Part shown: in pieces, positions 19,553 through 38,624 of the stretch
Layout: every line of letters starts with the position of its first letter
Numbering within the stretch: position 1 is the first letter of the stretch
NCBI GenBank assembly: GCA_016209525.1
Contig: JACQWK010000262.1
Location: 1 to 38,676 of the forward strand
Direction: 5' to 3'
DNA from: Verrucomicrobiota bacterium
GTDB taxonomy: Bacteria; Verrucomicrobiota; Verrucomicrobiia; Limisphaerales; SIBE01
Length of the DNA stretch: 38,676 nucleotides
Translations under genes and position numbers: made by a program
The notes under the pieces: model-generated
The model's input: only the letters and a program-made list of their open reading frames with translations
Databases searched by the model: none
Told to the model about the DNA's origin: nothing

Positions 19553-22500
19553 ATGCAGAAGCGACTTTTCCTGCTGGATGGCATGGCCCTGGTGTACCGG
19601 GCGCACTTCGCTCTGATCCGGCGTCCGATCTTCACCTCGAAAGGCGTCAACACTTCGGCGCTTTTCGGATTCACCCAAACCTTGCTCGACATCATTGCCA
19701 CCCAATCACCCACGCATCTCGTCGTGGCTTTCGACACCGATACGCCGACGCAGCGACATCGCGAGTACCCGGATTACAAAATCCAACGGGAAGCGATGCC
19801 GGAAGACCTGAGCCTGGCGCTGCCTCATGTCCGGCGTATGATTGAGGCCTTCCGCATCCCGGTCATCACGTGCGATGGTTTTGAGGCCGACGACATCATC
19901 GGAACACTCGTCCGCCGGGCGGAGCGCGAAGATTTTGTTTCGTACATGGTGACGCCGGACAAGGACTTCAGCCAGTTAGTCACTGAGAAGACGTTCTTGT
20001 ACAAACCATCGCGCATGGGTGAAGGCATCGAAATTCTCGGCCTGCCGGAAGTCCTCAGCAAATGGGGTATCAAGAATCCGAGTCAAGTCATCGATATCCT
20101 GGGTTTGTGGGGTGACGCCACGGACAACATCCCGGGAGTGCCTGGAATCGGTGAAAAAACGGCGGGCAAACTGATCGCGGAATACGGCAGCGTGGAAAAC
20201 CTGCTCGCTCATACCGCCGATCTCAAAGGAAAATTGAAAGAATCCGTCGAAGCCAACCGGGAGCGAGCGCTCCTTTCGAAGCGGTTGGCCACGATTATCT
20301 GTGACGCCCCGGTCTCGGTCGAGCTCGATGCGCTGAAGAAGCGGGTTTGGGACGAGCCGAATGTTCGCAGCCTCTGTGTCGAATTCGAGTTCAATTCCAT
20401 CGGCCGGCGATTATTCGGCGACGATTTCAAGGCTGGGCGTGGATTCGCCGGAGGAGCGGCGGATTCGAAGCTCGGGACTTCTGATCCTGTGAGTCGCGCT
20501 CAGGCTGGGAGCGATGTTGGCGAGCTCTTCCCCCTCACCCCGGTCCTCTCCCCAGGGGAGAAGGGGAAGCAGTTTACGCGGTCTGGACAACCTGTGGCTT
20601 CCCCGTCCTCCCCAGCGCAAGGGGATTCACTCCCTCTCCCGGCGGGAGAGGGCCGGGGTGAGGGGGAACGGCCTCGGCAAACCACCCCTGCGGCTCCAAC
20701 GGCTTCCGGCTCCCCCGCAACCGAAAGCCCGTTCCCCCACGCACCGAGTCTCAAAACCATCGCCGACGTTCCACACGAGTATCAGTTGGTCCAAACTCGT
20801 GAGCAACGAGCGAAACTGATTCAAATGCTCCGACGGCAGCCCTCGTTTTGTTTCGACACCGAGACCACAAGCCTGGATCCAAAAGATGCGAAGTTGGTCG
20901 GAATCGCTTTTTCCTTCAATCCGCAGACCGGCCATTTCGTCGCGGTTCCCCAGGAGGCCGGCCAAGCGCAGGCGATTCTTGGAGAATTTCGGCCCGTCTT
21001 TGAAAGCGAAACCATCGAAAAAGTGGGCCACAACCTGAAGTTCGATCTGAGCGTGCTCAAATGGCAGGGCCTCTCCGTGCGGGGGAAACTGTTCGACACG
21101 ATGCTGGCGCATAGTTTGATCGAACCCGACATGCGGCACACGATGGACTACTTGGCGGAAGCCTATCTCGGATACAGCCCGGTCCCCATTACCAAGCTCA
21201 TTGGAGAAAAGGGATCCGAGCAGCTCAATATGAGCCAGGTTCCGCTGGAAGAGTTGACGGAATATGCCGCTGAGGACGCGGATGTCACCTGGCAACTGCG
21301 CTCGGTGCTGGAGCCGCTATTGAAGGAGAAAGGCCAGGAAAGGGTATTCTATGAAATTGAGGCGCCACTCCTGCCGGTGCTGATGGAGATGGAACTTGAA
21401 GGCGTGCGCGTGGATGCCGCGGCGTTGTCGGAGTTTGCGGAACAATTGTCCAAACAGGTCGCGGCGTGTGAGCGCACCATTTATCAGCTCGCGCGAACGG
21501 AGTTCAATTTGAACTCCCCGAAACAGCTCGGCGAAGTCCTCTTTGAAGGCCTCAAGATTGCCGAGAATCCGAAGAAGACCCGGACGGGGCAATATGCGAC
21601 CGACGAGCAGACGCTGTTGGCGCTGGCGGGCGAACACGAAATCGTCCAGCGCATCCTGGAATACCGGGCGATGACGAAATTGAAATCAACCTACGCGGAT
21701 GCGCTGCCGGGGACTATTTTTTCAAAGACGGCCCGCATCCACACCACCTACAACCAGACGGTCACGGCAACGGGGAGGCTGCAATCTCAGAATCCAAATC
21801 TTCAAAACATCCCCATCCGCACGGAGCTCGGGCAAGAGATTCGGAAGGCGTTCATCCCTCGCAGCGAGGAATACATGCTGTTGTCGGCGGACTATTCACA
21901 GATCGAGCTGCGGATCATCGCCGCCATCAGCGGCGATGCCGCTCTGCGGGAGGCCTTCCGCAGCGGCCACGATATCCACACCGCCACGGCGGCGAAGGTC
22001 TATGCCGTTCCGCTCGATCAGGTGAATTCGGAAATGCGCCGCAAGGCGAAGATGGTGAACTTCGGCATTATTTACGGCATCTCTGCGTTCGGTCTTTCCC
22101 AGCGGTTGGGCATCCCGCGGAAGGAAGCCGGCGACATAATCGATCAATATTTCGATCAGTTCCCCGGCATCCGGAAATACATTTCAGACACGATCGAATT
22201 CGCGCGCGAGCATGGTTACGTGCAAACGGTGACCGGCCGCCGGCGGTATTTGCGCGACATTCGATCCTCCAACGCGACCGTACGTGGCGCGGCCGAACGC
22301 AACGCCATCAACGCTCCCATTCAAGGAAGCGCCGCGGACATGATCAAGATCGCGATGGCCAAAATCCATTGCGATTTGAGCCGGCGGAAGCTCAAGACGC
22401 GCATGCTTCTCCAGGTCCACGATGAACTGGTCTTCGACCTGTTCAAGCCCGAGGAGGCAGAGGCCCGCGCCCTGATTGAAGACGGAATGAAAACGGCGAT

Positions 22501-22564
22501 TCCGCTGGACGTGCCCATCGTCGTCGAAATGGGCGTGGGAAAGAATTGGCTCGAAGCGCATTAA
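19553..22564 (+). CDS. polA: DNA polymerase I with a repeat-derived linker insertion
   Basis: A 1003-residue family A polymerase, longer than the usual 880-930. The 5'-3' exonuclease (residues 1 to about 300) has DGFEADDIIGTL, TPDKDFSQLV and GDATDNIPGVPGIGEKTA. The proofreading 3'-5' exonuclease (about 415-610) keeps DTETTSLD, VGHNLKFD and YAAEDAD, so it should be active. The polymerase (about 620-1003) has motif A DYSQIELR near 780, motif B RRKAKMVNFGIIYG near 828 and motif C VHDELV near 955. Residues about 326-373, between the 5' nuclease and proofreading domains, are encoded by a REPIN-like repeat (FPLTPVLSPGEKG...SLPLPAGEGRGEGE). The frame stays open through both arms and the domains on each side are intact, so the enzyme is presumably functional with a longer Pro/Gly-rich linker. 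Confidence 0.97.
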   Translation: MQKRLFLLDGMALVYRAHFALIRRPIFTSKGVNTSALFGFTQTLLDIIATQSPTHLVVAFDTDTPTQRHREYPDYKIQREAMPEDLSLALPHVRRMIEAFRIPVITCDGFEADDIIGTLVRRAEREDFVSYMVTPDKDFSQLVTEKTFLYKPSRMGEGIEILGLPEVLSKWGIKNPSQVIDILGLWGDATDNIPGVPGIGEKTAGKLIAEYGSVENLLAHTADLKGKLKESVEANRERALLSKRLATIICDAPVSVELDALKKRVWDEPNVRSLCVEFEFNSIGRRLFGDDFKAGRGFAGGAADSKLGTSDPVSRAQAGSDVGELFPLTPVLSPGEKGKQFTRSGQPVASPSSPAQGDSLPLPAGEGRGEGERPRQTTPAAPTASGSPATESPFPHAPSLKTIADVPHEYQLVQTREQRAKLIQMLRRQPSFCFDTETTSLDPKDAKLVGIAFSFNPQTGHFVAVPQEAGQAQAILGEFRPVFESETIEKVGHNLKFDLSVLKWQGLSVRGKLFDTMLAHSLIEPDMRHTMDYLAEAYLGYSPVPITKLIGEKGSEQLNMSQVPLEELTEYAAEDADVTWQLRSVLEPLLKEKGQERVFYEIEAPLLPVLMEMELEGVRVDAAALSEFAEQLSKQVAACERTIYQLARTEFNLNSPKQLGEVLFEGLKIAENPKKTRTGQYATDEQTLLALAGEHEIVQRILEYRAMTKLKSTYADALPGTIFSKTARIHTTYNQTVTATGRLQSQNPNLQNIPIRTELGQEIRKAFIPRSEEYMLLSADYSQIELRIIAAISGDAALREAFRSGHDIHTATAAKVYAVPLDQVNSEMRRKAKMVNFGIIYGISAFGLSQRLGIPRKEAGDIIDQYFDQFPGIRKYISDTIEFAREHGYVQTVTGRRRYLRDIRSSNATVRGAAERNAINAPIQGSAADMIKIAMAKIHCDLSRRKLKTRMLLQVHDELVFDLFKPEEAEARALIEDGMKTAIPLDVPIVVEMGVGKNWLEAH
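20528..20669. repeat. REPIN-like repeat inside polA
   Basis: The left arm TTCCCCCTCACCCCGGTCC at 20528 and the right arm CTCCCTCTCCCGGCGGGAG...GGGTGAGGGGGAA ending at 20669 match the intergenic copies at 32758 and 30671 in arms, order and spacing. It is translated in frame as the polA interdomain linker. Confidence 0.85.
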
Positions 22565-23327: not shown

Positions 23328-24809
23328 CTACTTCTGCGGAAACCATGCGCGCAAAAACTCTTCGAGACTCCCTTCGTAAACCGCTTCAGCCAGATGTTCG
23401 ATGCCTTGCTGATTGCCCCAAGAATAGTGGATGACCAGCCGGCCTTGCCATTCGCAGAAGTCAATGTCCGAGTTGTTGATGTTTTTGGCCTCGGTAATAC
23501 GCTTCCGCTGCTCGGCTGTCAGTTTCGGGTTGGCGATGATCTTGTCTTCGGGAGAAGCGCGCAGCACGGGATTCAACGGGCTGGCTTCCCAATGGACCAA
23601 GTCGCGTGAGCGAACGACGCGCATTTCGTATCCGTCGTGCGCTTCGAGGTAGAAGTTGTAGAACCAGCCCTCCAGCCAGCGCAAACAGTGCGGCGCCGTG
23701 TAACGGTCCTTGGCGTAATTGCACTCCGGCGGCGTCAGTGTCCACGCGCGCAAGTCGCTCGATTTCGCGAACCGCGCGGTGAACGGCGCGCCCGCTTCTT
23801 CCTTCGGCTTGTCGATCTCAAACATGAGCACAAATCCATCGCCTGCCTTGCAGATCGAGGTGTTGAAAATGCCGTAGCGGCCATCGTGGATGACGGGCCA
23901 CGTCTCCCACGTTTTGAGGTCGCGCGAGGCGAACATGTTCACTCGGCTGCGGCCTTGAGTCCCCGTGACATAGACCGTCTCACCCTCGACGAACGCGCTG
24001 CCGAATTCGTGTCCGTCGGCAAACGGCGGCGCAAGTTCGCCGGTCGCCGGGTCGCGGAACCGAAAATAATTCGTCTGCCGCTGATTGTCCCAATACTGCT
24101 GGCCGATGCCCTGCCGCACCCATTCGAAGCGCCAGAGCCGGCCCTTGAGGACAATCGGGGTCGTTTCCACCAGATCGAGGTCGATCGTGCCCAATTTTCG
24201 GATGCGCGGGCGGCCGTCGGCAAGCGCGCGCATCTCCCCTCCCAATGCTTCGACCTCCGATTGTAATTCGGCCAGCGGTTTGCCTTTGTTCATGCCGGGC
24301 CGGACATGGCCGACGTGCGTCAGCCAAGCATCCTTGAGGAAGCGCTGGCGCCGTTGCACGAGCTTCAGGATTTTGGCGCCATTCGGGTGCGACTTCAGCA
24401 ACGCCTGCGGATTTTCAGAAGAGACGACCGCGACAGGCGCGCCGAGATGGCGAAGAATTTCGCGCGCAATCAGCCAATGGCCTTGCGTGTTCGCGTGAAC
24501 GCCGTCGGCCGCCAACCGGAAATTCGGATCGGCCCGCCGGCGTTCGGCAAGGAATTTGTTCATCGGACCGTGAACATCGACGATTTCCCAACCTTGCGCG
24601 CGCTGGCTGAGCAGCCAATCCGAGTACCGGTCGAGGACGTCGTTGTAGCCTTCGAAAGGCAAACGGTATTCACCTGCGTAGGTGATACTATCCCCAAGGA
24701 AAACGACGCGGCGGGACTCGCGCCAGAATTCCGGCGTGAGTGGCGGATTCTGCGCTAGCGCGGTTACTTGCACAAAGCAAGTGAGAAGCCAGATGAAAGG
24801 AGGTTTCAT
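23328..24809 (-). CDS. Secreted SGNH-hydrolase remnant fused to GH43-like beta-propeller
   Basis: A 493-residue protein with a signal peptide (MKPPFIWLLTCFVQVTALAQ). Residues 34-120 carry SGNH-esterase block I (VVFLGDSITYAGEY, Ser41) and block V (DGVHANTQGHW, Asp102/His105). The 54 residues between them lack block II Gly and block III GxND; the sequence jumps from AGEY directly to RLPFEGYNDVLDRYSDWLL, which belongs near the end of the domain in homologues. An in-frame deletion of roughly 100-130 codons is inferred. Residues about 200-490 are a glycosyl-hydrolase-43/32-like five-bladed propeller (NMFASRDLKTWETWPVIHDG, FAKSSDLRAWTLTPPE, RYTAPHCLRWLEGWFYNFYL, VRSRDLVHWEASPLNP). The start ATG overlaps the upstream stop as ATGA, so it is translationally coupled to the HdrC-tricorn gene. 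Confidence 0.8.
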   Translation of the reverse strand: MKPPFIWLLTCFVQVTALAQNPPLTPEFWRESRRVVFLGDSITYAGEYRLPFEGYNDVLDRYSDWLLSQRAQGWEIVDVHGPMNKFLAERRRADPNFRLAADGVHANTQGHWLIAREILRHLGAPVAVVSSENPQALLKSHPNGAKILKLVQRRQRFLKDAWLTHVGHVRPGMNKGKPLAELQSEVEALGGEMRALADGRPRIRKLGTIDLDLVETTPIVLKGRLWRFEWVRQGIGQQYWDNQRQTNYFRFRDPATGELAPPFADGHEFGSAFVEGETVYVTGTQGRSRVNMFASRDLKTWETWPVIHDGRYGIFNTSICKAGDGFVLMFEIDKPKEEAGAPFTARFAKSSDLRAWTLTPPECNYAKDRYTAPHCLRWLEGWFYNFYLEAHDGYEMRVVRSRDLVHWEASPLNPVLRASPEDKIIANPKLTAEQRKRITEAKNINNSDIDFCEWQGRLVIHYSWGNQQGIEHLAEAVYEGSLEEFLRAWFPQK

Positions 24810-27271
24810 CTTGGAAACGATTTGTCCGGGTATTTGGGCGCGGGCGGAACCGGGCGCGGGTCTTTGGCGATGAGTTCTTGAAGGTGTTTGACCGCCGCGT
24901 CGAGTTGGGCGTCGGCTCCCTTGAAGGTGGCATGCGGCAGATTGTCCACGACGATGTCGGGATCGACGCCGTGGCCTTCGATCAACCACGCGCCTTCCGG
25001 GCCATAAACTCCGAACTCTGCGGCCGTCGCCGCACCACTGTCCACGAGCCAGCGTTCGACGCGGAGCCAGATTTCGCCGCCCCACGTGCGAGTGCCGATC
25101 ACCTTGCCCAGGCCCAAGCGCTTAAAGCCTTCCGTAAACGCCTCGCCGTCGCTCGCCGTCCGTTCGTTGCACAGCACGACAAGATGGCCGCGGAAGGCGT
25201 ACTGCATGTTCCAGTAAGGGCTGCCCACGCGTGGTTGCCAATAAAACCACGCCTTGCGCAAAAGCTTCCCAAGAATCCAAGAGTCGATGTTTCCGCCCCG
25301 GTTGTTGCGGACATCGATGATCAGTCCTTGGCGTTTGAATACGGGATAGAATTCCCGCGCCCATTCCGCGATGTTGTCCGTGCCCATCGCGCGCAAATGG
25401 ACGTAGCCGATCTGGCCTTTGCCAAGCTCCTCGACGCGCAAACGGCGGGTGTACTCCCATTCATCGTAACGCAAGTTTGCTTCGGCGCCTGCAGTGATCG
25501 GCTTCACGATGACTTGGCGCGAGGCACCGTCCTTCGGCGGCCGCACATCCAACAGGACCTGCTTGCCCGCCTGATTGCGCAGCAAGATCTCCGGATGAGC
25601 CGCGTTCAGCGTGGAACGGCCATTGATGCGCAGGATCACATCGTCGTCCTGCACCTCGACGCCGGGCCGCGCCAGAGGAGAAAGCGCAGCGGGGTAATCC
25701 GGATCCGCGCGGAAAATGTGATCGACACGCCAGCCACCGGCGGATTCATCGCGAAGCAACCGCGCTCCCAGCGACGCCGTCCGAATCTGGTCCGGACCTT
25801 CGCGCTCGTCGCCAAAGAAGACATAAATGTGCAGCGCGGACAACTCGCCGGCCATTTCCGAGATCAAGTCGCTCAGTTCACTGCGATCGCTCACCCGATC
25901 CACGAGGGGCAGGTACTTCTTCAGAATGGCGAACCAATTCAGCCCGTGCAGTCCGCGATCATAGAAGAAGTCGCGAATCATGCGCCACGATTCGGTGAAG
26001 ATTTGGCGCCATTCCTCGCGCGGATCGAGCATAAAAGTCCAGCCGTCAAGATTCACACGCGTGTCGTCAAGTTTCGCGGGTGCGGCGGCGTCGGAAGCAA
26101 TGACATGAAAGTTGTCGCCTTTGCGGAGGAGGAGCTTCTTTCCGTCCGCGCTAAGCTCATAACTGGCGATGTCCTCCACGAGCGTCTTCGGTTTGGGATC
26201 CTTGTGGGTGATCTCGAGTTGTTTGAGATGGCGTTTGGCGTCGAAGCCTGTGTCGCGGGCAGTCCAAAGCAGATGTTTGGCCGTGACCGACAGGCGCCCA
26301 TAATTGCCGGCCGGCACAGGCACTTCATGAAGGCGAGACGCGAGCCCTTCGAGGTCGATCGTTACACTCGGAGGCTGGTTGGTCTTGGAGTCTTTAAGGC
26401 CGTTCTTGGCCGAAGTTGCTTCGGGTGCTCGGTTGGGTGATCCTTGCCCCTGCCCGTGAGTCCACCCACCCGCTACCCCCACGGCTGTTGAACTAAGGTC
26501 AACCGGCCGTTTCTTGCTCTTAAACGTGCTCTTACTCTTACTCCCGAACTCCCTGGAGAGATTAAGATTACGAGTACGAGTAAGAGCAAGACCTGCTCGG
26601 GATGGAATCGAATTCATTCTTAATTCAACAGCAGTGCTCCCTACCCCTCCCAGGAGGGGAGCTTCGTTGCTCGTCGCCATTGTTCGTTCCCCTCCTGGGA
26701 GGGGTGCAGGGGTGGGTTCAACAAGAGATTCTGCGGTCTGCGACACCTCGTCTGCCCCCTCGGCGACAGGCTCGAGCAATTTCTGGATTTCGGCGGCGTT
26801 CACCGGACGGATCGGAGGCAGGCCAAACTGTTCGCGCTGCCGGTCCACCGCGGAGCTGGCGGGCGTCGTTCGTCCCGTCGTCTCAACGGCCTTGATGATC
26901 TTGTCGATCCCTCCGGGGTAAATGCCCCGATCCGCCAGCATGTTTTTCAGCGAGATGATCACCTCGACCGGCTTAACCTGCTGGGGACAGCGTTCGTGGC
27001 AATTGTAGCAGTTGGTGCAGTGCCACAGGATGGAATCGGGCTTGAGCAATTCCGAGCCGAGGCCATAGAGCACTTTCAACATGATCTCGCGGGGATTGAA
27101 CTCGCGGCTGTAGGCCGCGGCCGGACAATCGCCCACGCAAGCGCCGCACTGATAGCAGAAGTTCGACAAGTTTCCTTCGACCTTGCGGGCCAACTCGCGC
27201 CGGAAGTCGAAATTCACGCGCACGAGTTCTTCCGGGTCGTCAACGGCAGCAGCAGATCGCGTCATAATCAT
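24806..27271 (-). CDS. HdrC-like ferredoxin fused through translated repeats to tricorn-type S41 protease core
   Basis: An 821-residue chimera. Residues 1 to about 170 are a complete HdrC-like protein with two [4Fe-4S] motifs (FCYQCGACVGDCP; HCTNCYNCHERCP) and the HdrC ending FGLPPIRPVNAAEIQKLLE. Residues about 185-270 are low-complexity and are encoded by two repeats (26637-26716 and 26511-26590). Residues about 290-821 are the C-terminal part of a tricorn/S41 peptidase: the end of a propeller (DLEGLASRLHEVPVPAGNYG), C1 domain, PDZ (DDVILRINGRSTL) and the core with nucleophile TASDGEAF (Ser near 706). The usual tricorn Ser-His pair appears as ALH (His kept, Ser lost). The N-terminal beta-propeller is missing. 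HdrC belongs to the upstream electron-transfer operon, and the tricorn part has no known link to it. A deletion or loss of the hdrC stop probably created the fusion. Confidence 0.8.
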   Translation of the reverse strand: MIMTRSAAAVDDPEELVRVNFDFRRELARKVEGNLSNFCYQCGACVGDCPAAAYSREFNPREIMLKVLYGLGSELLKPDSILWHCTNCYNCHERCPQQVKPVEVIISLKNMLADRGIYPGGIDKIIKAVETTGRTTPASSAVDRQREQFGLPPIRPVNAAEIQKLLEPVAEGADEVSQTAESLVEPTPAPLPGGERTMATSNEAPLLGGVGSTAVELRMNSIPSRAGLALTRTRNLNLSREFGSKSKSTFKSKKRPVDLSSTAVGVAGGWTHGQGQGSPNRAPEATSAKNGLKDSKTNQPPSVTIDLEGLASRLHEVPVPAGNYGRLSVTAKHLLWTARDTGFDAKRHLKQLEITHKDPKPKTLVEDIASYELSADGKKLLLRKGDNFHVIASDAAAPAKLDDTRVNLDGWTFMLDPREEWRQIFTESWRMIRDFFYDRGLHGLNWFAILKKYLPLVDRVSDRSELSDLISEMAGELSALHIYVFFGDEREGPDQIRTASLGARLLRDESAGGWRVDHIFRADPDYPAALSPLARPGVEVQDDDVILRINGRSTLNAAHPEILLRNQAGKQVLLDVRPPKDGASRQVIVKPITAGAEANLRYDEWEYTRRLRVEELGKGQIGYVHLRAMGTDNIAEWAREFYPVFKRQGLIIDVRNNRGGNIDSWILGKLLRKAWFYWQPRVGSPYWNMQYAFRGHLVVLCNERTASDGEAFTEGFKRLGLGKVIGTRTWGGEIWLRVERWLVDSGAATAAEFGVYGPEGAWLIEGHGVDPDIVVDNLPHATFKGADAQLDAAVKHLQELIAKDPRPVPPAPKYPDKSFPR
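26511..26590. repeat. AAGAGCAAG/CTTGCTCTT inverted repeat within the chimera
   Basis: TTCTTGCTCTTAAACGTGCT plus CTTACTCTTACTC (26511-26543) opposes GAGATTAAGATTACGAGTAC plus GAGTAAGAGCAAG (26558-26590). It is A+T-richer than its surroundings and is translated as a Ser/Lys-rich linker (SREFGSKSKSTFKSKK). Confidence 0.65.
26637..26716. repeat. REPIN-like short variant within the HdrC-tricorn linker
   Basis: CCCTACCCCTCCCAGGAGGG and CCCCTCCTGGGAGGGGTGCA flank a 30-base centre, matching the intergenic variant at 2466-2550. It is preceded by TTCAACAGCAGTGC, as is the copy at 75. Confidence 0.75.
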
Positions 27272-28143: not shown

Positions 28144-30600
28144 TCATGCCACAGCTTCGGCGATTTTGGTTCCTTCTTCCTTCCCTTGTTTTTTCGGTTT
28201 CGGTTGAAGCGCCTTGCGCGCATGTTCGATTTCTTCCGAGGTCACCGTCTCTCTCAGCTCCTCCAGACGGTGCATCACCTTGGCGAACTTCTGGCCTTCC
28301 GCGGCGCTGATCCATTCGAGCTGAAGGCGCTCGGGCCGAATCCCCGCTCTTTCCAGCCGGTCCCAGAGCCGCTGGACGCGCTTGACCGTCTGGCGGTTGG
28401 CGTTGATGTAATGGCAGTCGGCATAGTGGCACCCGGAAACGAGCACGACCGGCGCGCCGCACCGGAACGCTTCCAGCACCATCTCTTCAGAGACACGCGC
28501 CGAGCACATCGTCCGCACGACGCGGTTGGTGGCTGGATATTGAAGTCGCGAGATGCCGGCCATGTCGGCGCCGGCGTAAGAGCACCAGTTGCAGGCGAAC
28601 GCGAGGATTTTGTCCTGCGGATCCTCGGCCAGGATCGCGCGCACTTGGGCGAATATCTGCTCATCGGTGAAATGGCGCATGGTGATGGCGGCAAAGGCGC
28701 ACGTCGCCGCACAGGCTCCGCAACCGGCACACATCGCCTCCGTCACGACAGCCACTTCGCCTTTCTTCCAGGTGATGGCGGCGAAGGGGCAGACCGCGGC
28801 GCACAAACCGCACTTCTTGCAGAGTTCAGCATCGATGTGGCTGGTCGTCGCTTCGATCTTGATCCGGCCCGCGTTGAGCAACGTTCCGGCGCGCGAAGCG
28901 GCGGCGCCGGCCTGGCAGACGGTGTCTTTGATATCCTTCGGAGCTTCGCAACCGCCCGCGAAAAAAACGCCGCGAGTGGGCGCATCCACCGGCTTCAACT
29001 TCGGATGGGATTCCAAAAAGAAGCCTTCGGAAGTTTTCGAAAGCGTCATCAGCCGTGAAATCTTGCCCAGATCTTTCGGCGGCTGAACTCCGACCGATAG
29101 CACGACCAGATCGAGCTCGTGCCGCTCGACCTTCCCGGCCGTCGTGTTTTCGACCGTCACGAAGAGGTTGCGCGTCTTCGGATCTTCTTCGATATCGCCC
29201 GGCAGGCCGCGAATGTAGCGCGTGCCGGCTTCCTTCGACCGCTGGAACATTTCCTCGAACGATTTTCCGAACGCGCGGATGTCTTGGTAAAAGACGAACG
29301 TTTCCACGTCCGGATAGTGATCGGCCAAGAGCAAGGTGTCCTTGACCGTGTTCATGCAGCAGATGTTCGAGCAGTAAGGACGGCCGATTTTCGCATTCCG
29401 GGAGCCGACACACTGGACGAAGCCGATGCGCTTGGGGTGCTGCCGATCGCTGGGCCGCACAAAATGACCGGCCGTGGGACCCGCCGCGCAGATCAGGCGC
29501 TCGAACTCCATCGACGTAATCACGTTGTCGAAACGGGCGTAGCCGTAGTCGTCCAACTCGGTTGGGTCGTAAACGTCAAAGCCGATTGCGACGACAACAG
29601 CGCCGACGCTTCTCGTGATGATTTCGTCGCGGTCATCGAAGTCGATCGCCTTTTTCTCGCAGACTTCGGCGCACTTTCCACAGGCGATCGGATTATTGCC
29701 GAGGCAATCGTCCATGCTGAGGATATAGGAGCTGGGCACGGCTTGCGGGAAGGGAATGTAGATCGCGCGCCGGGAGGAGAGTCCAATTTGGAACTCGTCG
29801 GGCTTGGCCACCGGACACACCTTAGCGCATTCCCCGCAGGCGTTGCACAAGGTTGGATCGACGTAACGGGCTTTCTTACGAATTTTCACGGTGAAGTTGC
29901 CGACGTACCCCGACACTTCCTCGACTTCACTCCACGTCAGGAGCTCGATGTTCGGATGCCGACCGGCATCCAGGGCCTTGGGCCCCAGAATTCATATCGA
30001 GCAATCCATCGTGGGATAGGTCTTGTCGAGCTGGGCCATGATCCCGCCGATGGACGGTTGTTTTTCAACCAGGACGACCTTATGACCCGCGTCGGCGAGC
30101 TGAAGCGCGGTTTCGATGCCGGCCACGCCGCCGCCGATCACCAACGCGGCCTTGGCCACGGGCACCGACGCTTCCTCCTGCGGCTGCAGGAACCGGGCTT
30201 TTGCCACCGCGCTGGCCACAAGGTCTTTGGCTTTCCGGGTCGCTCGTTCGCGATCGCGAGGATGCACCCACGAGCAATGCTCGCGAAGGTTGGCCATCTC
30301 CATTAGGTACGGGTTCAGACCCGCGGCGCGCGCGCACTGCCGGAAGGTGAGTTCATGCTGGCGCGGCGTGCAGGAAGCGACCACCACGCGGTTCAAGCGG
30401 TGCTGCTGGATGGCCGCCTTGATTTCGTTCTGGCCGGGCTCGGCGCAAGTGTACTTGTTCCGCATCGCGCAGACGACGTCCGGCAGCGTTTTGGCGTACT
30501 CGGTCACAGCGCCGCAATCAACCGTGCCGGCAATATTCAAACCGCAGTCGCAGACAAAGACGCCGATCCGCAACCCGTGATTTGTAGGCTCGTCGTTCAT
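28144..30600 (-). CDS. hdrA: Selenocysteine-containing HdrA fused to MvhD
   Basis: Read through one TGA (29992-29994), this is an 818-residue HdrA-MvhD fusion with Sec at residue 203. The N-terminal domain (RIGVFVCDCGLNIAGTVDC...SCTPRQHELTF) is the iron-sulfur entry domain of HdrA. The FAD domain begins ALVIGGGVAGIETALQLADAG. The active region is AQLDKTYPTMDCSI, Sec, ILGPKALDAGRHPNIE, where other HdrA proteins have Cys. [4Fe-4S] motifs follow: CNACGECAKVCP, CGKCAEVC, CKKCGLCAAVCP and CAGCGACAATC. From about residue 665 an MvhD domain follows (FACNWCSYAGADMAGI, SGCHYADCHY, RLEWISAAEG) with a Lys-rich tail. A purine-rich GAGAGG about 10 bases upstream of the ATG supports the start. Role: FAD-based electron bifurcation hub. 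Standard calling splits it at 29992. Confidence 0.88.
29954..29994 (-). promoter_or_regulatory. UGA(Sec) codon and bacterial SECIS hairpin of HdrA-MvhD
   Basis: On the minus strand TGA (29994-29992) is followed by 20 bases and then GGATGCC-GGTC-GGCATCC (29971-29954), a perfect 7-bp stem with GGUC loop. GGUC is also the apical loop of the E. coli fdhF SECIS bound by SelB, and the loop falls 27 bases after the UGA, within the spacing usual for bacterial SECIS elements. The sister gene has the identical hairpin at the identical spacing. Confidence 0.85.
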
Positions 30601-30887: not shown

Positions 30888-32189
30888 TCATTCGCATGAT
30901 TCGCGGACTTGCTTCTCGAATGCTTGGGCGATCGCCTCGGCCACGACTTCGGACACGTCTTTCATTTCGATCTCGGTCTCTCCTCGGAGCCTCGGATCCT
31001 TCATCGCGCAGCGGAAGTGGATCTGGCATTTCGGGCACGCGGTCACGAGCACGCTTGCGCCGGTGGCTCGCGCTTCGCGCAGGCGTTCCACTTGGATTTG
31101 CTTGGCAAAGCGGTCGCAATTGGACCACGTTCCGCCGGCGCAACACAGCGCTGCGCCCGCCCGATTTCGCATCTCCGCCAGCTTGATCCCAGGCAGAACG
31201 GAGAGCACCTGGCGCGGCGGATCGTAAATGCCAAGGTGACGTCCCAAACGGCAGGGATCTTGGAAAGTGACGGAAGTTGGTGTCTTAGATTCCAGGGCGG
31301 AGCCTGTTCGAACTTGAGGTGAAGGTGCAGCCGTCGAGGTGAAAAGGTCTATGTTTCCGTCGGGGGTTGACGGAGAGTCCGCCTCCTCACGTCGGCGGCT
31401 ACGGGTTTCCAGCAGATTCTTCAGCTCCTGCAAATGTTCCGCCAGAAACTCGCTGATGTGGAGCATCCTTGGCGGCTTGCTGGAGAAGAACGGTTCGTAA
31501 TCGATTTTCCAGGTCCGAAGGCATTCGGCGCACGAGGTCACCAGCGTTTGTGCGCCGCTGGCCTCCAGGAGCTTGACGTTATGCTGTGCGAGCAATTCGA
31601 AATGTTTCCGGTCGCCGTTCCAGAGCAGATCGTGCCCGCAGCAGCGTTCGTCCGCCGACACCACCGGGACGACGCCGAGTTTGTTCATCAGGCCCACGGC
31701 CGCCTTCGTGCCTTTGAGCGTGGCCACCGGGAAATCGGAGAAGAACGCGTCATAGTAAACATTGCATCCGGTCCAATAGAAAACTTCGCCTTTCTCCGGG
31801 TCTGACTTCAGATCGGGACTCAGCCAACGGAGCCGATCCTGATGTGTTTCACCTTTGGCCATCATGCGCATGAGCGACTGCAAGGCGCCTCCGTGCGGGC
31901 ATTCCGGCTCGACGCCGCCGCGGAACGCAAGCGCTCGGAGCTTCTGAATGAGATCGGTGTAGGCCACAGTGGCCGGACAGCGCTGGTCGCACATACGGCA
32001 AGTGAGACAACTGAACAGAGTGCCGTTCTGAAGGATTTCCTTCTGCTGGCCGGAGTTCGCCTTCAGGACGTGGCGCCGGGGGCTCAAGCTTCCGCCGATG
32101 CGCGCGATGGGGCACGCGGCGGTGCACTTCCCGCAGTCGTAGCAGGCCCAAGCTCTGCTTTCTCTAACCGCTGTGAGGAGATCCTGCAT
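30888..32189 (-). CDS. hdrD: HdrD-like (HdrC+HdrB) iron-sulfur protein with two CCG domains
   Basis: A 433-residue protein starting MQDLLTAVRESRAWACYDCG; it overlaps the mvhD 3' end by 26 bases. The N-terminal part holds two [4Fe-4S] motifs (CYDCGKCTAACPIA; CLTCRMCDQRCP). Two CCG domains follow: first TGCNVYYDAFF, ERCCGHDLLW, SCAECLRTW; second DPCRLGRHLG, ALCCAGGTWSNC, TACPKCQIHF. These bind the non-cubane [4Fe-4S] clusters that reduce disulfides in HdrB/HdrD. Between the CCG domains is a 40-residue insert (SRRREEADSPSTPDGNIDLF...), part of it encoded by repeat family 2 (31376-31405). It is probably the substrate-reducing subunit of the complex, acting on an unknown disulfide or quinone-like acceptor. 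No membrane segment or heme protein is present, so it is likely soluble. Confidence 0.88.
   Translation of the reverse strand: MQDLLTAVRESRAWACYDCGKCTAACPIARIGGSLSPRRHVLKANSGQQKEILQNGTLFSCLTCRMCDQRCPATVAYTDLIQKLRALAFRGGVEPECPHGGALQSLMRMMAKGETHQDRLRWLSPDLKSDPEKGEVFYWTGCNVYYDAFFSDFPVATLKGTKAAVGLMNKLGVVPVVSADERCCGHDLLWNGDRKHFELLAQHNVKLLEASGAQTLVTSCAECLRTWKIDYEPFFSSKPPRMLHISEFLAEHLQELKNLLETRSRRREEADSPSTPDGNIDLFTSTAAPSPQVRTGSALESKTPTSVTFQDPCRLGRHLGIYDPPRQVLSVLPGIKLAEMRNRAGAALCCAGGTWSNCDRFAKQIQVERLREARATGASVLVTACPKCQIHFRCAMKDPRLRGETEIEMKDVSEVVAEAIAQAFEKQVRESCE
31376..31405. repeat. Repeat family 2 arm inside the HdrD-like gene
   Basis: AGTCCGCCTCCTCACGTCGG followed by CGGCTACGG is the inverse of the arm seen at 12797 and 2251 (CCGTAGCCGCCGACGTGAGG). 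It is translated as SRRREEADS in the linker between the two CCG domains. Confidence 0.7.
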
Positions 32190-32670
32190 AAGGATTGCGT
32201 TTGCCCGCCAACAGGCTCGGCCCCAATCTTCGGATCTGGTCCGTAAACTCATTGATGATCCGGGCAAATCGGGCGCCTTCGGCCGCGCTGATCCATTCCA
32301 AACGGAGCCGCTGCTCCTCGATGCCGAGCAACCGGAGCACGCGTTTGATCTTCTCGAATTGTTCGACGGCGCGGCGGTTGCCAAAGACGTAATGGCAATC
32401 GCCGAAATGACAACCCGACATCAGCACGCCGTCGGCCCCCTTCTCGAAAGCGCGAAGGACAAAGTCGGGCTGGATCCGTCCGGAGCACATGACGCGGATG
32501 ATCCGAAAGTACGGTTCGTACTGGATTCGCGACACGCCCGCGGTGTCGGCTCCGGCGTAGGAGCACCAGTTGCAGGCGAACACCACCAGCCGCAGATTCC
32601 ACGAAATGGACTCCCGTCTTTGCGCCTGCGCAACTTGGGCCGCTGGTGGCAAAGATTCAGTCGCAGTCAT
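32164..32670 (-). CDS. mvhD: MvhD-like [2Fe-2S] electron-transfer subunit
   Basis: A 168-residue MvhD/FlpD-family protein. Conserved cysteines lie in VVFACNWCSYAGADTAGVSR, VMCSGRIQPDFVLRAF and MSGCHFGDCHYVFGN; RLRLEWISAAEGARFARI ends the core. In methanogens MvhD carries electrons from the hydrogenase or formate dehydrogenase to HdrA FAD. No hydrogenase gene is here, so an alternative donor such as ferredoxin, NAD(P)H or a 2-oxoacid oxidoreductase is inferred. This is a free-standing copy in addition to the MvhD domain fused to HdrA at 28144. A Gln/Ala-rich N-terminal 25 residues are atypical. The 3' end overlaps the HdrD-like gene. Confidence 0.9.
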   Translation of the reverse strand: MTATESLPPAAQVAQAQRRESISWNLRLVVFACNWCSYAGADTAGVSRIQYEPYFRIIRVMCSGRIQPDFVLRAFEKGADGVLMSGCHFGDCHYVFGNRRAVEQFEKIKRVLRLLGIEEQRLRLEWISAAEGARFARIINEFTDQIRRLGPSLLAGKRNPYAGSPHSG

Positions 32671-32757
32671 GGTAGATGAAACCTAACGTTGCGATTAAAG
32701 AGTGAAACGATGATCGATTCGGAATATTCCCGTGGCCGTAGGCGAGTGGCCATGCCG

Positions 32758-32899
32758 TTCCCCCTCACCCTGGCCCTCTCCCTCAGGGAGAGGGAAGGAC
32801 GGACTACGTGCGCGAAGAATGCGGGCGGTTCCCAATAGGTCCAGGCGCGGCAAACGTTGCTCCCTCTCCCCTGGGGAGAGGGCCGGGGTGAGGGGGAAG
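32758..32899. repeat. REPIN-like repeat between mvhD and the tandem hdrA gene
   Basis: TTCCCCCTCACCCTGGCCCT at 32758 and CTCCCTCTCCCCTGGGGAG...GGGTGAGGGGGAA ending at 32899 flank a 60-base centre. It fills most of the 331-base gap 32671-33001, in which no gene is seen. Confidence 0.85.
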
Positions 32900-33001
32900 G
32901 CGAGGCTAGCCCAAGCCACCACCTCGCTACAGGACTCGAGGTCCAACAATCCACCAGACCCACACATTTTTTTAAGCCGTCCATTGCTTGATGCCTCAGG
33001 T

Positions 33002-36000
33002 TTAGTCCGAAATTGCTGGCGCCATCTCCTCTTCCGTGAAGACCGCGTCGATCATCGCGCGCACTTGGCGATCGGTGAAATGCCGGGCGGTGATCGCGCC
33101 GGAAGGACACCAGGCCGCGCAAGTTCCACAGCCCTTGCACAGCGAAGGATTGATGCGGGCCGCAAAAACGCCGGGGGTCACTTCGACGATTTGCGGGGCT
33201 TGGAACTGGCAAATCTCGACGCATTGACCGCACGCCCGGCATTTCACCTCATCCACAACCGCGACCGCCGGATGCAGTTTCACTTGATCGTGCGCCAATA
33301 GAACGGAAGCCTTCGCGGCGGCGGCGGACGCTTGAGCCACGCTGTCCACGATGTCCTTCGGGCCTTGCACGGTCCCGGCGACAAAGATTCCTTCCACCGA
33401 TGTTTCCACCGGGGCCAATTCAGGGTGCCGCTCCAAGAAAAAGCCATCCAGTCCAAGGCTGATCTTGAGCATCTCATGAAACTTCGCCGTCTCAGGTTGT
33501 CTCGGCCGCATGCCGACGCTCAACACCACGAGGTCGGCCGGGACTTCCAGGCGCCGCCCCAGCAACTCATCATAGCAGCGCACCGCCTCGGCGCGTCCGT
33601 TCCCGATGACTTCGGGTTTCTCGCCAGGCGGGATGCGCACGAAGAGCACTCCCATGCCCCGGGCCTGGCGATACATTTCTTCGGCGCCTGTCGAGATGGT
33701 GCGGATGTCTCGGTAGAAGATTGTCGTGTCGATGCCTTGCCGGCAAAGCTGGATGGCTTGCTTGATGGCGGTTGGGCAACAATAGCGCGAACATCCGGTG
33801 AAGCCCTTGGGATCGCGCGAGCCGACGCACAGGATGAATGCGGCGCTTCGGGGCCGTCGTCCGTCAATCGTGATCGCCCCGCCATTCTCTGCGGAACCAG
33901 TCCTAGGCCCTCGCACGCCTCGCGAATCTGTGGACCGCGGACCGTTTCGACCCGCAGCGGCACCGGCCACAACCTGCGTCTCGGAGTTATCTGCGGGCAC
34001 AGGCGGCAACGAGGCCGCTGCGGGCGCGGCCCGCCTGCCGTTCGCGGCGGCTTCGGCTCCGCGGCCTTCCGAAAAGAGGCGCTCGAGTTCCGCGCTGGTG
34101 AGCACGTTGGGAAAGGCGCCGTAACCGAACTCGTTTTGGGGTTCGTAGAGGGACGCTCCAGTTGCGAGGATGATCGCTCCGACAAATATTTTCTCTTCGC
34201 GCGGGCCGGTTGCTGTTGGGTCCATGGGAGCAGCCACATCGCCCGGTTGTTGGACGTCGAGTTCCCCCTCTCCCTGGCCTTCTCCCTCAGGGGGAGGGTA
34301 AAGTGCGGCTGGCACATCGGCCAGCCCGACTGGCTGGGCTTGTCGATGCGCGTCGGACTGTTCTCCCTCTCCCCTAGGGAGCGGGCCGGGGTGAGGGGGA
34401 CGCGACGGTAGTCTATCCCGCGACCGCTTCACTAAGGTCACCTCGAAGTTGCCGACGAAGCCCGCAATTTTTTCGACTTCTGTGTTCAGCAGAACTTTCG
34501 CGCCGCTGGCCTCCAACCGTTCCAGCTTCTGCTCCAGGACTTCGGCGGCGAGGCGCATGTTCGGATAGAGGTATTTCAGGTTTGGCTCCGCCAAGCGGCC
34601 GCCCAGCCGGCTTTCCTTCTCCACGAGCGTGACGGCAAATCCCTGCACGGCCAGATCAGTGGCCGCTTCGATGCCCGCGATTCCTCCGCCGATGACGAGC
34701 GCCGCGGGAGTCATCGGTGACTTGCCTTCCACCAGCGGCGCCAGGTAGTGGACTCGGGCGACTCCCATGCGGATGAGCGCGCGAGCCTTTGCTTGCGCCT
34801 CGCGCCGGCTTTTTGCGTGCACCCAGGAACATTGATCGCGAATATTAACCATCTCGAAGAGGTAAGGATTAAACCCAACCCGTGCCAAGGTTTCCTGGAA
34901 AATCGGTTCGTGTGTCCGCGGCGTGCAGGCGGCGACGACCACGCGGTTGAGCCCGTGCTCGCCGATGAGATCGATCAACTCTCCTTGCCCGGTCGCCGAA
35001 CACGAAAAGAGATGGGTCTTCGCCACCACCACGTTTGGAATGGTCGCGGCATACTTCGCCAACTCCTCAACGTCCAGAACTCCCGCGATGTTCACGCCGC
35101 AATGGCAGATCATCACGCCCACCCGAGGAGGGCCGGAGAGATCCAGAGGCTGCACGGCGGCTGATGGTTCCTTCACACGCTGCCCGCAGAGAAACAGCTC
35201 CGCTCGGGCCGCCGCCGCGGAAGCTTGAGCCACGCAGTCCGGGATGACCTGCGGGCCGACGGCGCTGCCGCAAACGAAGATTCCTTCTCGCGTTGTTTCC
35301 ACGGCTGAGATCGCGGGATCACGGCGGGCCACGAAACCGTAGGCATCCGTCTCAATGCCCAGGATGCGGGCGAGTTCCAGGGCCCCTTCGTTCGGCGCCG
35401 CGGCGATGGAAAGGACGACCAGATCGGCCGGGAGGCGGCGAGGTTGGTGTTCGAGCGTGTCCTCGACGAAGATCATCAGCGTATCGTCCTCCGGAATGCG
35501 CTCGATCTTCGCGGGACGGCCTCGGAGATAAATGGCGCTGTGTTCGTCGCGAGACCGCTGCACGAAATCGTCGAACCCTTTGCCAAAGGCTCTGAGATCG
35601 GTATAGAGGATCGTCACGGTTTCGACTTCGGGATCATGCTGCCGGATGAGCATTGAGTCTTTGACGGCGTTCATGCAGCAGAACCGGCTGCAGTAGGGTC
35701 TTCCTCCCTCCCCCCGCGCTCCCACGCACTGGACAAAAACGATCCGCTTGGGCGTCTTCATGTCCGAAGGGCGCACGACATGGCCCCGGGTCACGCCGGA
35801 GGCATTGAGCATCCGTTCCAATTCCAGGCTCGTCACCACGTTCTGGAACCGGCCATAGCCGTAATTGCCAAGCGCTCGCGCGTCGAACTCCTGGAAGCCG
35901 ACAGCGACGAGCACGGATCCGACCTCGCGAATGGTTTCTTCCGGCGGCATGTCGAAATCAATCGCGTCCACGTCGCACACCTTCGCGCAGTGCCCGCACA

Positions 36001-36568
36001 CCAGCATATTGGCCGGCCGTTCCGGTGGCGGCGGTTTCCGTTTCTTGAAATCCTGGACCTTCCGGAGCCTTTTGAGCTGCGGCTCGCTGAGAAATCCCAG
36101 AAAATTCATGCATGCGTTCCGATCGATCACGTAGGCCGACGGCACCGATTGCGGGAAGGGCCGGTAAATCGCCTTGCGGGCCTTAAGGCCGAGGTCGAAT
36201 TCATTTCCGCCGATCTGCGGGCAAGCCTCTGCGCATTGGCCGCAAGCCACGCAACGGTCCTCGCGCACGTAGCGCGGATTCTTGCGCAGCCGCGCCCGGA
36301 ATTCGCCGGCTTTCCCTTCCAGACCGACGAGCTCGGTATTGGTCATGACTTCGATGAGCGGATGCCGACCGGCATCCATGGCCTTGGGCCCGAGAATTCA
36401 GATGGCGCAATCCATGGTGGGAAACGTCTTGTCGAGCTGGGCCATGCGTCCGCCCAGCGCCGGTGACTTTTCCACCAGAGTGACTCGAATGCCCGCGTGG
36501 GCGAGGTCGAGCGCGGCTTGGATGCCCGCGATGCCGCCGCCGAGCACGAGCGCCCGCTTTTCGGTCAA
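33002..36568 (-). CDS. hdrA: Tandem HdrA-HdrA protein; first HdrA has selenocysteine
   Basis: Read through TGA at 36398-36400, this is a 1188-residue fusion of two HdrA units, with Sec at residue 57. Unit 1 (about 1-465) lacks the N-terminal iron-sulfur entry domain and starts at the FAD fold (ALVLGGGIAGIQAALDLAHAG). It continues AQLDKTFPTMDCAI, Sec, ILGPKAMDAGRHPLIE, CVACGQCAEACPQ, CGHCAKVCD and RPYCSRFCCMNAVKDS. Unit 2 (about 478-1188) starts VGVMICHCGVNIAGVLD, has ALVIGGGIAGIEAATDLAVQ, lacks the Cys/Sec motif (LKYLYPNMRLAAEV instead), and ends with two [4Fe-4S] motifs (CRACGQCVEICQ, CKGCGTCAAWCP). A REPIN-like insert (about residues 723-769) and an Ala/Pro/Gly-rich insert (about 828-908) interrupt unit 2. 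The start is uncertain: TTG 36568, preceded by GGGG, was chosen; GTG at 36649 lies inside a repeat. Confidence 0.85.
34262..34400. repeat. REPIN-like repeat inside the tandem HdrA gene
   Basis: TTCCCCCTCTCCCTGGCCTT at 34262 and CTCCCTCTCCCCTAGGGAG...GGGGTGAGGGGG ending at 34400 match the intergenic copies in arms and spacing. It is translated in frame (PHPGPLPRGEGE...YPPPEGEGQGEGE), between VTLVKRSRDRL and KIFVGAIILATG of unit 2. Confidence 0.85.
36360..36400 (-). promoter_or_regulatory. UGA(Sec) codon and bacterial SECIS hairpin of tandem HdrA
   Basis: On the minus strand TGA (36400-36398) is followed by 20 bases and then GGATGCC-GGTC-GGCATCC (36377-36360), a perfect 7-bp stem with GGUC loop. 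Loop sequence and distance match bacterial SECIS rules, and both equal the element at 29954-29994. Confidence 0.87.
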
Positions 36569-36632
36569 GGGTTCGTCCCCATCCAGTTTGTTATTCGGGA
36601 TCGTGTCCACAATTAGTAGCGATCGATGAGTT

Positions 36633-36982
36633 GAACCACGAATGGACACGAATAAACACGAATCAAGACGGCGGCGGAACGGACCTGGAATGGTTTTGTT
36701 GTTGTCACTAAAGAGTGGCCTCTACGAGGGACGAGGGCGGAGCTTAACACTGCCGCCCAATGGTAGGGACGCCGGGCTTCCGGCGATCCCGCCCGCGTGC
36801 CGCGGGCGGAACTTGAATCCCGCCGCCAACGGAGGCGTTCCGGTTGCGCCGCTGAACGCGGCGCGGACAGCGCAGGCGCGCTGTCCCTACCCATCACCGT
36901 GGCAGTGTCAAGATGCGCCCGGCCGACGGAGACCCCTGTCGAAACCCAATCCGATTCGCGTGCATTCGTGTTCATTCGTGGT
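36633..36982. repeat. Nested inverted repeats filling the hdrA-korC gap
   Basis: Outer arms: GAACCACGAATGGACACGAA at 36633 and, inverted, GTGTTCATTCGTGGTTTC at about 36966-36983. Inner element: TGGTAGGGACGCCGGGCTTC at 36761 and GCGCTGTCCCTACCCA ending at 36893, with GC-rich palindromic centre. Both are typical dispersed repeats. No gene is supported between 36650 and 37003, and a promoter for hdrA might be here but is not recognisable. Confidence 0.65.
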
Positions 36983-37003
36983 TTCCGACTGAATGCTTGC
37001 GGT

Positions 37004-37594
37004 TTAGCGAAGGGCTTCCGCCAAGCCCGGTTGGCCCGCTTTCCCGGCTGACGGACCATATTCCTTTTCGAAATAAGCCCAGCCCGCGTCAAAGGCCTTG
37101 AGGTTCAATTCTTCCGTTCCGGCCGGGACGGATGTTTTCACGGCGTTGCGGATCGCTTCGTGCGGCACGATCCGAGTCACGGCCGCGGTGAAGCCTACCA
37201 TCACGATGTTTTGTACCATGGTCCTTCCGAGCGATTCCGCGATTCGCGTGGAGGGAATTCCAAAGGCGTGATGTCCGTCATCAGAGTTCGGGTGAACCAG
37301 ATCCTTTTCGTGAATCAAGATGCCATCCGGCTTGAGTTCACCGTGATACTTTTCATAGCCCTCAGCCGACATGGCCACGAGGATGTCAGTCCGCTGAATG
37401 TACGGATACAGCACTTCGGCGTCGGAGACCGCCAAAGTGGCGCTGCAGGCCGAACCGCGCGCTTCCGGGCCGAAGCTCTGAATCATGGTCGCGTGTCTGC
37501 CCGCATGCACCGCGCAAGCGCACCCGATGATGTAGGCCGAGAGCACAACGCCCTGACCGCCGAAACCAGTCACTCGAATTTCCATTCTGTTCAT
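37004..37594 (-). CDS. korC: 2-oxoacid:ferredoxin oxidoreductase, gamma subunit
   Basis: A 196-residue protein starting MNRMEIRVTGFGGQGVVLSA; ATG at 37585 is a close alternative. Family features: GFGGQGVVLSAYIIG, the ARGSACSATLAVSDAEVLYP segment, DILVAMSAEGYEKY and the C-terminal GWAYFEKEYG. It is the gamma domain of pyruvate/2-oxoglutarate:ferredoxin oxidoreductases, in the cytoplasm. It follows korB by 25 bases on the same strand. The substrate (2-oxoglutarate, pyruvate or another 2-oxoacid) cannot be settled without the alpha subunit, which is outside the window. Confidence 0.9.
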   Translation of the reverse strand: MNRMEIRVTGFGGQGVVLSAYIIGCACAVHAGRHATMIQSFGPEARGSACSATLAVSDAEVLYPYIQRTDILVAMSAEGYEKYHGELKPDGILIHEKDLVHPNSDDGHHAFGIPSTRIAESLGRTMVQNIVMVGFTAAVTRIVPHEAIRNAVKTSVPAGTEELNLKAFDAGWAYFEKEYGPSAGKAGQPGLAEALR

Positions 37595-37619
37595 TTCGTG
37601 CGCTTCGCGCATTTTGTGG

Positions 37620-38624
37620 TTAAAGTCCCTTCTCCGCCTCCGGTTCGCGAAGGATTCCCCCTTCCGGAGGCATGGGCACATATTTCTCGCCGAGGATCTT
37701 CCGGTAGTGATCGTGCATCATTTCCAGGTAGGTGGGCCGCTCCTGGTCCACAAACTTGCCGCAAATGATCTTGCCCTGGAAATCGATCTCCAAGTCCCGC
37801 GTGTCTGCGCCGTGCCGGATTTCCACCTTCTCGTGATAGAAGTTCATCAGGTCGAGCCCGGTTCCGAGTTTGTTCAGGCGGGCATAGAGAGTGGGGCATG
37901 GAGTGATGACCTCGATGAGACGAAACCCTTTTCGCTTCAGGCCCTCGCCAAATGATTTCGCGAGGCGCCGGGTGTCCAGGCAGGTCCAGCGGGCCACGTA
38001 ACTGGCACCGCAACTCGCGGCGAGATGCGGCAGGTTGAAAGGCCGCTCGAAGTTCCCGAACGGCATCGTGGACGATTTCGCTCCCACCGGCGTGGTCGGC
38101 CCGCTCTGGCCGCCGGTCATTCCATAGATGAAATTGTTCACCAGAATCACCAGCAGATCCATGTTCCGCCGCGCCGCGTGGATCAAATGATTCCCGCCGA
38201 TGCCCGACAAATCCCCGTCTCCGGAAAACACCACGACCTGCAACTCCGGCCGGCTTAATTTCAGTCCGGTGGCGAAGGGGATGGCGCGGCCATGCGTGGT
38301 GTGAAATGCGTCCAACTTGAGGTAGCCCGCGGCCCGGCCGGTGCAGCCGATGCCCGAGACAATCGAAACCTTGTCCAGATTGATGGCGGATTCCTCAAGG
38401 GCGCTGGCCAGACACTTGACGACCGTGCCGAGTCCACAGCCGGGACACCAGATGTGTGGCATCCGGTCCATGCGAAGAAAGGAGGCGATGGGATGATCCT
38501 CGGGCCGGGTTTCGATCTCTTCCATCAGCGGAAGTTCGCCTTCTTTCGGCAAGTCCATGTCAGGAGCTTGATGATTGGCCGTCGGTTCAACAGCCGTAGC
38601 TGGGGTTGTCATATCCATCTCCAT
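37620..38624 (-). CDS. korB: 2-oxoacid:ferredoxin oxidoreductase, beta (ThDP-binding) subunit
   Basis: A 334-residue protein. An N-terminal extension of about 45 residues precedes the conserved core: HIWCPGCGLGTVVKCLASAL (CPGCG, cluster/ThDP region), SGIGCTGRAAGYLKLDAFHT, the ThDP/Mg motif FSGDGDLSGIGGNHLIHAAR...NNFIYGMTGGQ, and GASYVARWTCLD. It oxidatively decarboxylates a 2-oxoacid with CoA and passes electrons to ferredoxin together with korC and, presumably, korA/korD beyond the right edge. Three ATG codons occur within the first five codons; 38624 is the first. Its position suggests that it is the electron donor to the Hdr proteins downstream. Confidence 0.92.
   Translation of the reverse strand: MEMDMTTPATAVEPTANHQAPDMDLPKEGELPLMEEIETRPEDHPIASFLRMDRMPHIWCPGCGLGTVVKCLASALEESAINLDKVSIVSGIGCTGRAAGYLKLDAFHTTHGRAIPFATGLKLSRPELQVVVFSGDGDLSGIGGNHLIHAARRNMDLLVILVNNFIYGMTGGQSGPTTPVGAKSSTMPFGNFERPFNLPHLAASCGASYVARWTCLDTRRLAKSFGEGLKRKGFRLIEVITPCPTLYARLNKLGTGLDLMNFYHEKVEIRHGADTRDLEIDFQGKIICGKFVDQERPTYLEMMHDHYRKILGEKYVPMPPEGGILREPEAEKGL

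Follow-up and report, generated by a model that had tools for sequence, protein, structure and literature searches.

The window, i.e., the whole stretch of 38,676 nucleotides analyzed here (Verrucomicrobiota bacterium, contig JACQWK010000262.1), carries on its minus strand at 27271-24806 a single, stop-free open reading frame (ORF) of 821 aa with an ATG start. Its first 183 residues (26722..27271, minus strand) form an HdrC-like ferredoxin, which is complete to the normal C-terminus, contains two CxxCxxCxxxCP 4Fe-4S motifs and has 4Fe-4S dicluster domains placed by Pfam at aa 38-99. A repeat-encoded stretch of about 92 aa (aa 184-275) follows, and the remainder (aa 276-821; 24809..26445, minus strand) is the C-half of a tricorn-type protease, comprising native linker (..KTNQPP), the last propeller strands, and the C1, PDZ, and S41 core. 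The Pfam domains Tricorn_C1 (aa 417-475; 25847..26023, minus strand), PDZ_Tricorn (aa 501-589), and Peptidase_S41 (aa 621-775) all scored above the gathering cut-offs. The order given by the first-pass annotation, HdrC followed by repeats and a C1/PDZ/S41 core in one open frame, was therefore recovered at exactly 24806-27271. Its further statement that the propeller is missing holds only in part: most of the propeller lies outside the ORF, but about 110 residues ahead of C1 (aa 303-415) are retained and the remainder is found on a second contig of this genome.

Residues 18-167 of the HdrC part match solved HdrC subunits (PDB 7bkb_C, 8rvv_C, and 5odc_C). Like these proteins and the family TIGR03290, it has two 4Fe-4S motifs, is of full length (about 185 aa), and adjoins HdrA-type genes. 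The match to TIGR03290 extends over positions 2-129 of 144 and reaches 99.7 bits, which is below the equivalog cut-off of 160. In contrast to known HdrC proteins, the copy in the window has no stop codon at its normal end, and its best relatives within the phylum are merely 36% identical. No close HdrC relative was found among 388 genomes of the phylum, which suggests that the gene may have been acquired laterally.

As expected for an hdrC gene, genes for HdrA- and HdrB-type subunits are found in the same operon, namely an HdrA-FlpD gene (28144-30600), a Fer4/CCG gene (30888-32384), and a second HdrA gene (33002-36379). The latter two belong to an Hdr/2-oxoacid oxidoreductase cluster on the minus strand (30888-38624), which encodes the Fer4-CCG protein, KorC- and KorB-like proteins and, at 33002-36379, a 1125-aa HdrA-HdrA fusion. 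The HdrA-FlpD gene, also on the minus strand, is interrupted by one in-frame UGA at 29992-29994 (MDCSI-UGA-ILGPKA), which in the alignment takes the position of a Cys in solved HdrA and is followed by a hairpin with a GGUC loop. SelB (318 bits) and tRNA-Sec-like matches (68.7 bits) were found in the same genome. It is very likely that the gene encodes a selenocysteine-containing HdrA, a known selenoprotein family (PMC1794560).

The protease part resembles tricorn protease (family S41; PDB 1k32 and 1n6d) in its C1, PDZ, and S41 core, with residues 362-803 aligning to residues 630-1061 of 1n6d. In the alignment to the Thermoplasma tricorn structures 1k32 and 1n6d, the residues equivalent to the catalytic H746, S965, D966, and E1023 are kept, whereas S745 is replaced by Leu, which is also the consensus of the aligned close homologs. 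A second difference is that the β-propellers, which in tricorn precede the core in the same protein, are both absent from the ORF except for the last strands. The gene following the tricorn C-half (23328..24770, minus strand) has an SGNH-like N-terminus, according to our own reading of its motifs, and a weak GH43-like stretch. A homolog of this gene adjoins tricorn in the related locus L127, so that this side of the junction is probably native.

Between the HdrC part and the protease part, two palindromic repeats had been proposed, and both inverted repeats were found, far above chance as judged from copy counts and a reversed 18-mer control. The outer one, referred to as type B, is oriented on the minus strand, with its left arm, loop, and most of its right arm at 26637..26721 (translated ..VEPTPAPLPGGERTMATSNEAPLLGGVG..) and an inverted repeat at 26643-26705 whose arms are complementary at 18/18 positions. 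The rest of its right arm is located at 26446..26479 (minus strand), beyond a nested element, and reads like the continuation (GGGTGGGT..GGGCAGGGG) seen in other type B copies. This nested element, referred to as type C (26480..26636, minus strand), is MITE-like, 157 bp long, and bounded by 18-bp terminal inverted repeats (CACTGCTGTTGAATTAAG) at 26480 and 26636, with an internal hairpin formed by an inverted repeat at 26512-26591. It is flanked by a probable 9-bp target duplication, the left copy of which (GGGGTAGGG; 26639..26647, minus strand) is identical in 8/9 positions to the right copy (GGGGTAGCG; 26471..26479, minus strand). The genome contains at least 38 further copies of type B (83-92% identity) and at least 38 of type C; repeat counts are lower bounds taken from genome searches and fetched stretches. 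The terminal 18-mer of type C yielded 143 matches in the genome (≤2 mismatches) vs 0 for the reversed control, and a search of the window against Rfam gave no match. A further repeat, type A (CCCTCACCCCGGCCCTCTCC...), is also frequent in the genome and occurs in several copies within the window on either side of the junction, which indicates that both sides originate from the same genome. At its 3′ end hdrC runs into the type B repeat, which begins no more than a few codons from the point where HdrC normally ends. A repeat that inserted in frame close to the hdrC 3′ terminus would explain this arrangement as well as the earlier notion of an intergenic spacer that was drawn into the coding frame when hdrC lost its stop codon.

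Type C shares with MITEs its length of 157 bp, which is too short for a transposase, its 18-bp terminal inverted repeats, the target duplication of about 9 bp, and its high copy number. It differs from MITEs in its location, as most of the aligned copies sit within another palindromic repeat, flanked by about nine duplicated bases, and the element looks like a MITE nested in palindromes.

The behavior of the repeats in other parts of the genome offers an explanation for the open frame. The frame homologous to that of the window is open in 25/26 type B and 29/34 type C copies. Frames that are open for at least 80 residues on each side of the repeat harbor 9/29 type B and 7/19 type A copies, and six of the nine type B copies inside genes use the same frame as the window (PTPAPLPGGE...APLLGG). 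Pfam domains flanking or split by a repeat include a sulfite reductase-like domain (L222), AMP-binding domains (L245 and L217), a condensation domain (L110), and an oxidoreductase domain (L097). Since stop codons are so rare in that frame of the repeats, open passage through them is no evidence of a selected fusion. Within the window, palindromic repeats are also located in frame in polA (DNA polymerase I; 19553-22564, plus strand), between the 5′-exonuclease and the 3′-exonuclease domains (aa ~320-385).

Palindromic elements of Rickettsia were reportedly described by Ogata in 2000. The protein-coding elements of this type from Rickettsia and Wolbachia (reviewed in PMC2229807) are likewise dispersed palindromes of about 100-150 bp with preferred open frames, which are found in frame within unrelated conserved genes. 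The repeats described here show this same behavior, and the likeness is one of behavior only: they occur in another phylum, their sequences are G+C-rich and different as far as seen, and they carry a further nested MITE-like element. A literature search retrieved no description of an RPE-like type A/B family for this group. The occurrence of RPE-like palindromes in another phylum is a new aspect, which belongs to the repeats and not to the fusion.

The N-half of the tricorn-type gene was located by searching the intact tricorn of a relative (L013) against the same genome. Residues 474-1017 of this protein matched the window, and residues 1-466 matched positions 28709-30082 of a second contig, C394, with 62% identity. 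The frame of the N-half on C394 remains open up to the contig end at 30240, its final part being formed by a type A palindrome that has inserted into the linker. In relatives, a variable, charged linker lies between the two tricorn halves (median gap 76 bases). The end of C394 carries the first piece of this native linker (..EEPEKSEKKSG) and the window the last one (..SKTNQPP, common to L115), so that native linker is present on both broken sides. This indicates that the tricorn gene was split at its linker and that nothing was lost.

A scan of the species-level genome collection yielded 80 tricorn loci with 53-78% identity to the C-half in the window. The N-half immediately precedes the C-half, on the same strand, at 79 of these loci, and a simple test places 76 of these pairs in one open frame; the other locus, L174, is cut by the end of its contig. 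HdrC was found near tricorn in 0/80 of these related loci, and the gene pair that the first-pass annotation had proposed to look for in other genomes thus has no counterpart there. Across 77 relatives, the identities of the N-half and the C-half are correlated with r = 0.92, compared to 0.89-0.93 for four intact control genes treated alike, and the mean identities (54.1% for the N-half and 61.6% for the C-half) are normal. Taken together, these values imply that neither half has begun to decay. Judged from these comparisons, the two halves behave as one ortholog, and the genome appears to hold one ordinary tricorn-type gene of this ortholog group. The gene upstream of the N-half on C394 also has a counterpart (72%) before tricorn in the closest relative, L113, whose tricorn gene is intact. 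Together with the neighbor homolog in L127, this makes both outer flanks look native and the inner joint odd.

On the basis of these observations we consider the 821-aa frame to be a junction at dispersed protein-coding palindromic repeats and not an evolved fusion, with a probability of roughly 0.9. The tricorn linker would once have carried type A and type B repeats, and the 3′ end of hdrC would have carried a copy of type B; the hdrC and tricorn loci would then have been joined in register via the repeat, either in the chromosome or in the assembly. Since most intragenic type B copies are read in a common frame, such a register-preserving join of two copies would stay in frame and generate an in-frame chimera automatically, without any selection. 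Some observations do not fit this explanation smoothly. The end of C394 is a type A repeat, but type B stands on the side of the window, so the intact linker would have to hold both. Moreover, the nested type C with its matching target duplication forms a coherent joint, although a register-preserving join would give that as well. The earlier suggestion of a recombination accident at the repeats is supported, or else its assembly equivalent, by a tricorn gene that is split at repeats into complementary and intact halves. The HdrC-S41 fusion probably does not exist as a biological entity.

Whether the join took place in the assembly or in the chromosome is where the evidence divides. In the first case, hdrC with a repeat and another downstream sequence, and the tricorn N-half with its repeats and the C-half, would be separate loci between which the assembler crossed via the shared repeat. 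The draft genome comprises 764 contigs. For 73 type C elements the length of the contig is known, and 32 of these are no more than 200 bp away from a contig end, compared to an expectation of 2.2 (~14-fold excess). This excess shows that the repeat breaks the assembly, and it favors a false join. The position of the tricorn N-half at a contig end, the absence of decay in either half, and exact matches of 50-59 bp between 26578-26636 and several other copies point in the same direction. On the other hand, the longest exact match between the joint and any fetched copy, all of them from the assembly, is 59 bp, and elsewhere the assembler did not merge contigs that overlap exactly by 69, 73, and 89 bp; both findings argue mildly against a simple false join. 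Read pairs can usually span repeats of about 275 bp, and the joint contains no Ns, which likewise speaks against an assembly error. All in all, we hold an assembly chimera to be plausible, with a chance somewhat short of even. The overlaps mentioned concern contig-end pairs that overlap exactly inside repeats (C70/C540, 73 bp; C682/C110, 89 bp; C211/C580, 69 bp) and are possibly unmerged neighbors. No uniform overlap length of contig ends from which the k-mer size of the assembler might be deduced was found.

In the second case, a palindrome at the 3′ end of hdrC would have recombined with a palindrome in the tricorn linker, and the S41 half would recently have moved behind hdrC. Such a chromosomal rearrangement is in accordance with the coherent type B joint and its nested type C with matching target duplication, with the short exact sharing with other copies, and with the fact that the two sides of the window have their host repeat families in common, which indicates one genome. 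However, neither tricorn half is decayed, none of the relatives shows the rearrangement, and a reciprocal product was not identified. Among the contig ends starting in a repeat, no partner was identified as the true downstream neighbor of hdrC; as close relatives of hdrC are lacking in the phylum, there is no gene order that would point to this neighbor. We consider a chromosomal origin about as likely as an assembly chimera, near to even odds without quite reaching them. A more far-reaching version, in which the chromosomal junction arose by recombination between two same-frame palindromes, such repeats serve as joints that reshuffle gene halves without loss of frame, and the cell indeed makes the HdrC-S41 protein, appears improbable.

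The proposal of a new redox-protease chimera, in which HdrC electron transfer is coupled to the S41 core and the fusion has been selected, found no support. The frame is open across 821 aa, and both the iron-sulfur motifs and the equivalents of H746, S965, D966, and E1023 are kept. Yet this contig is the only one with such an arrangement among 80 tricorn loci, the open frame follows from the repeats themselves and is thus expected, and the propeller is truncated within a domain. In addition, AlphaFold predicted the linker as low-confidence coil, in a model that is weak as a whole (mean pLDDT 54; HdrC poorly modelled, with two HdrC homologs in the alignment). A functional HdrC-protease would have to manage without the complete propeller and with a disordered linker some 100 residues long, and we regard it as very unlikely. 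A literature search found no paper linking tricorn with heterodisulfide reductase. Finally, the suggestion that the repeats mediated a deletion of the tricorn propeller beside hdrC is hardly tenable and was rejected, since, even though repeats do stand at the joint, the propeller half survives intact at the contig end (C394:28709-30082), matches the C-half without loss so that the two make up an entire gene divided at the linker, and hdrC adjoins tricorn in 0/80 relatives; this rejection holds unless C394 is a foreign contig that was binned wrongly.

The by-product of more use is the finding that a Verrucomicrobiota-type genome harbors RPE-like palindromes for which one reading frame is preferred. 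Dispersed stop-free repeats of this kind produce convincing false multi-domain genes in draft genomes. If it is true that joins between such repeats also occur in the chromosome, they would provide a simple route to in-frame gene chimeras.
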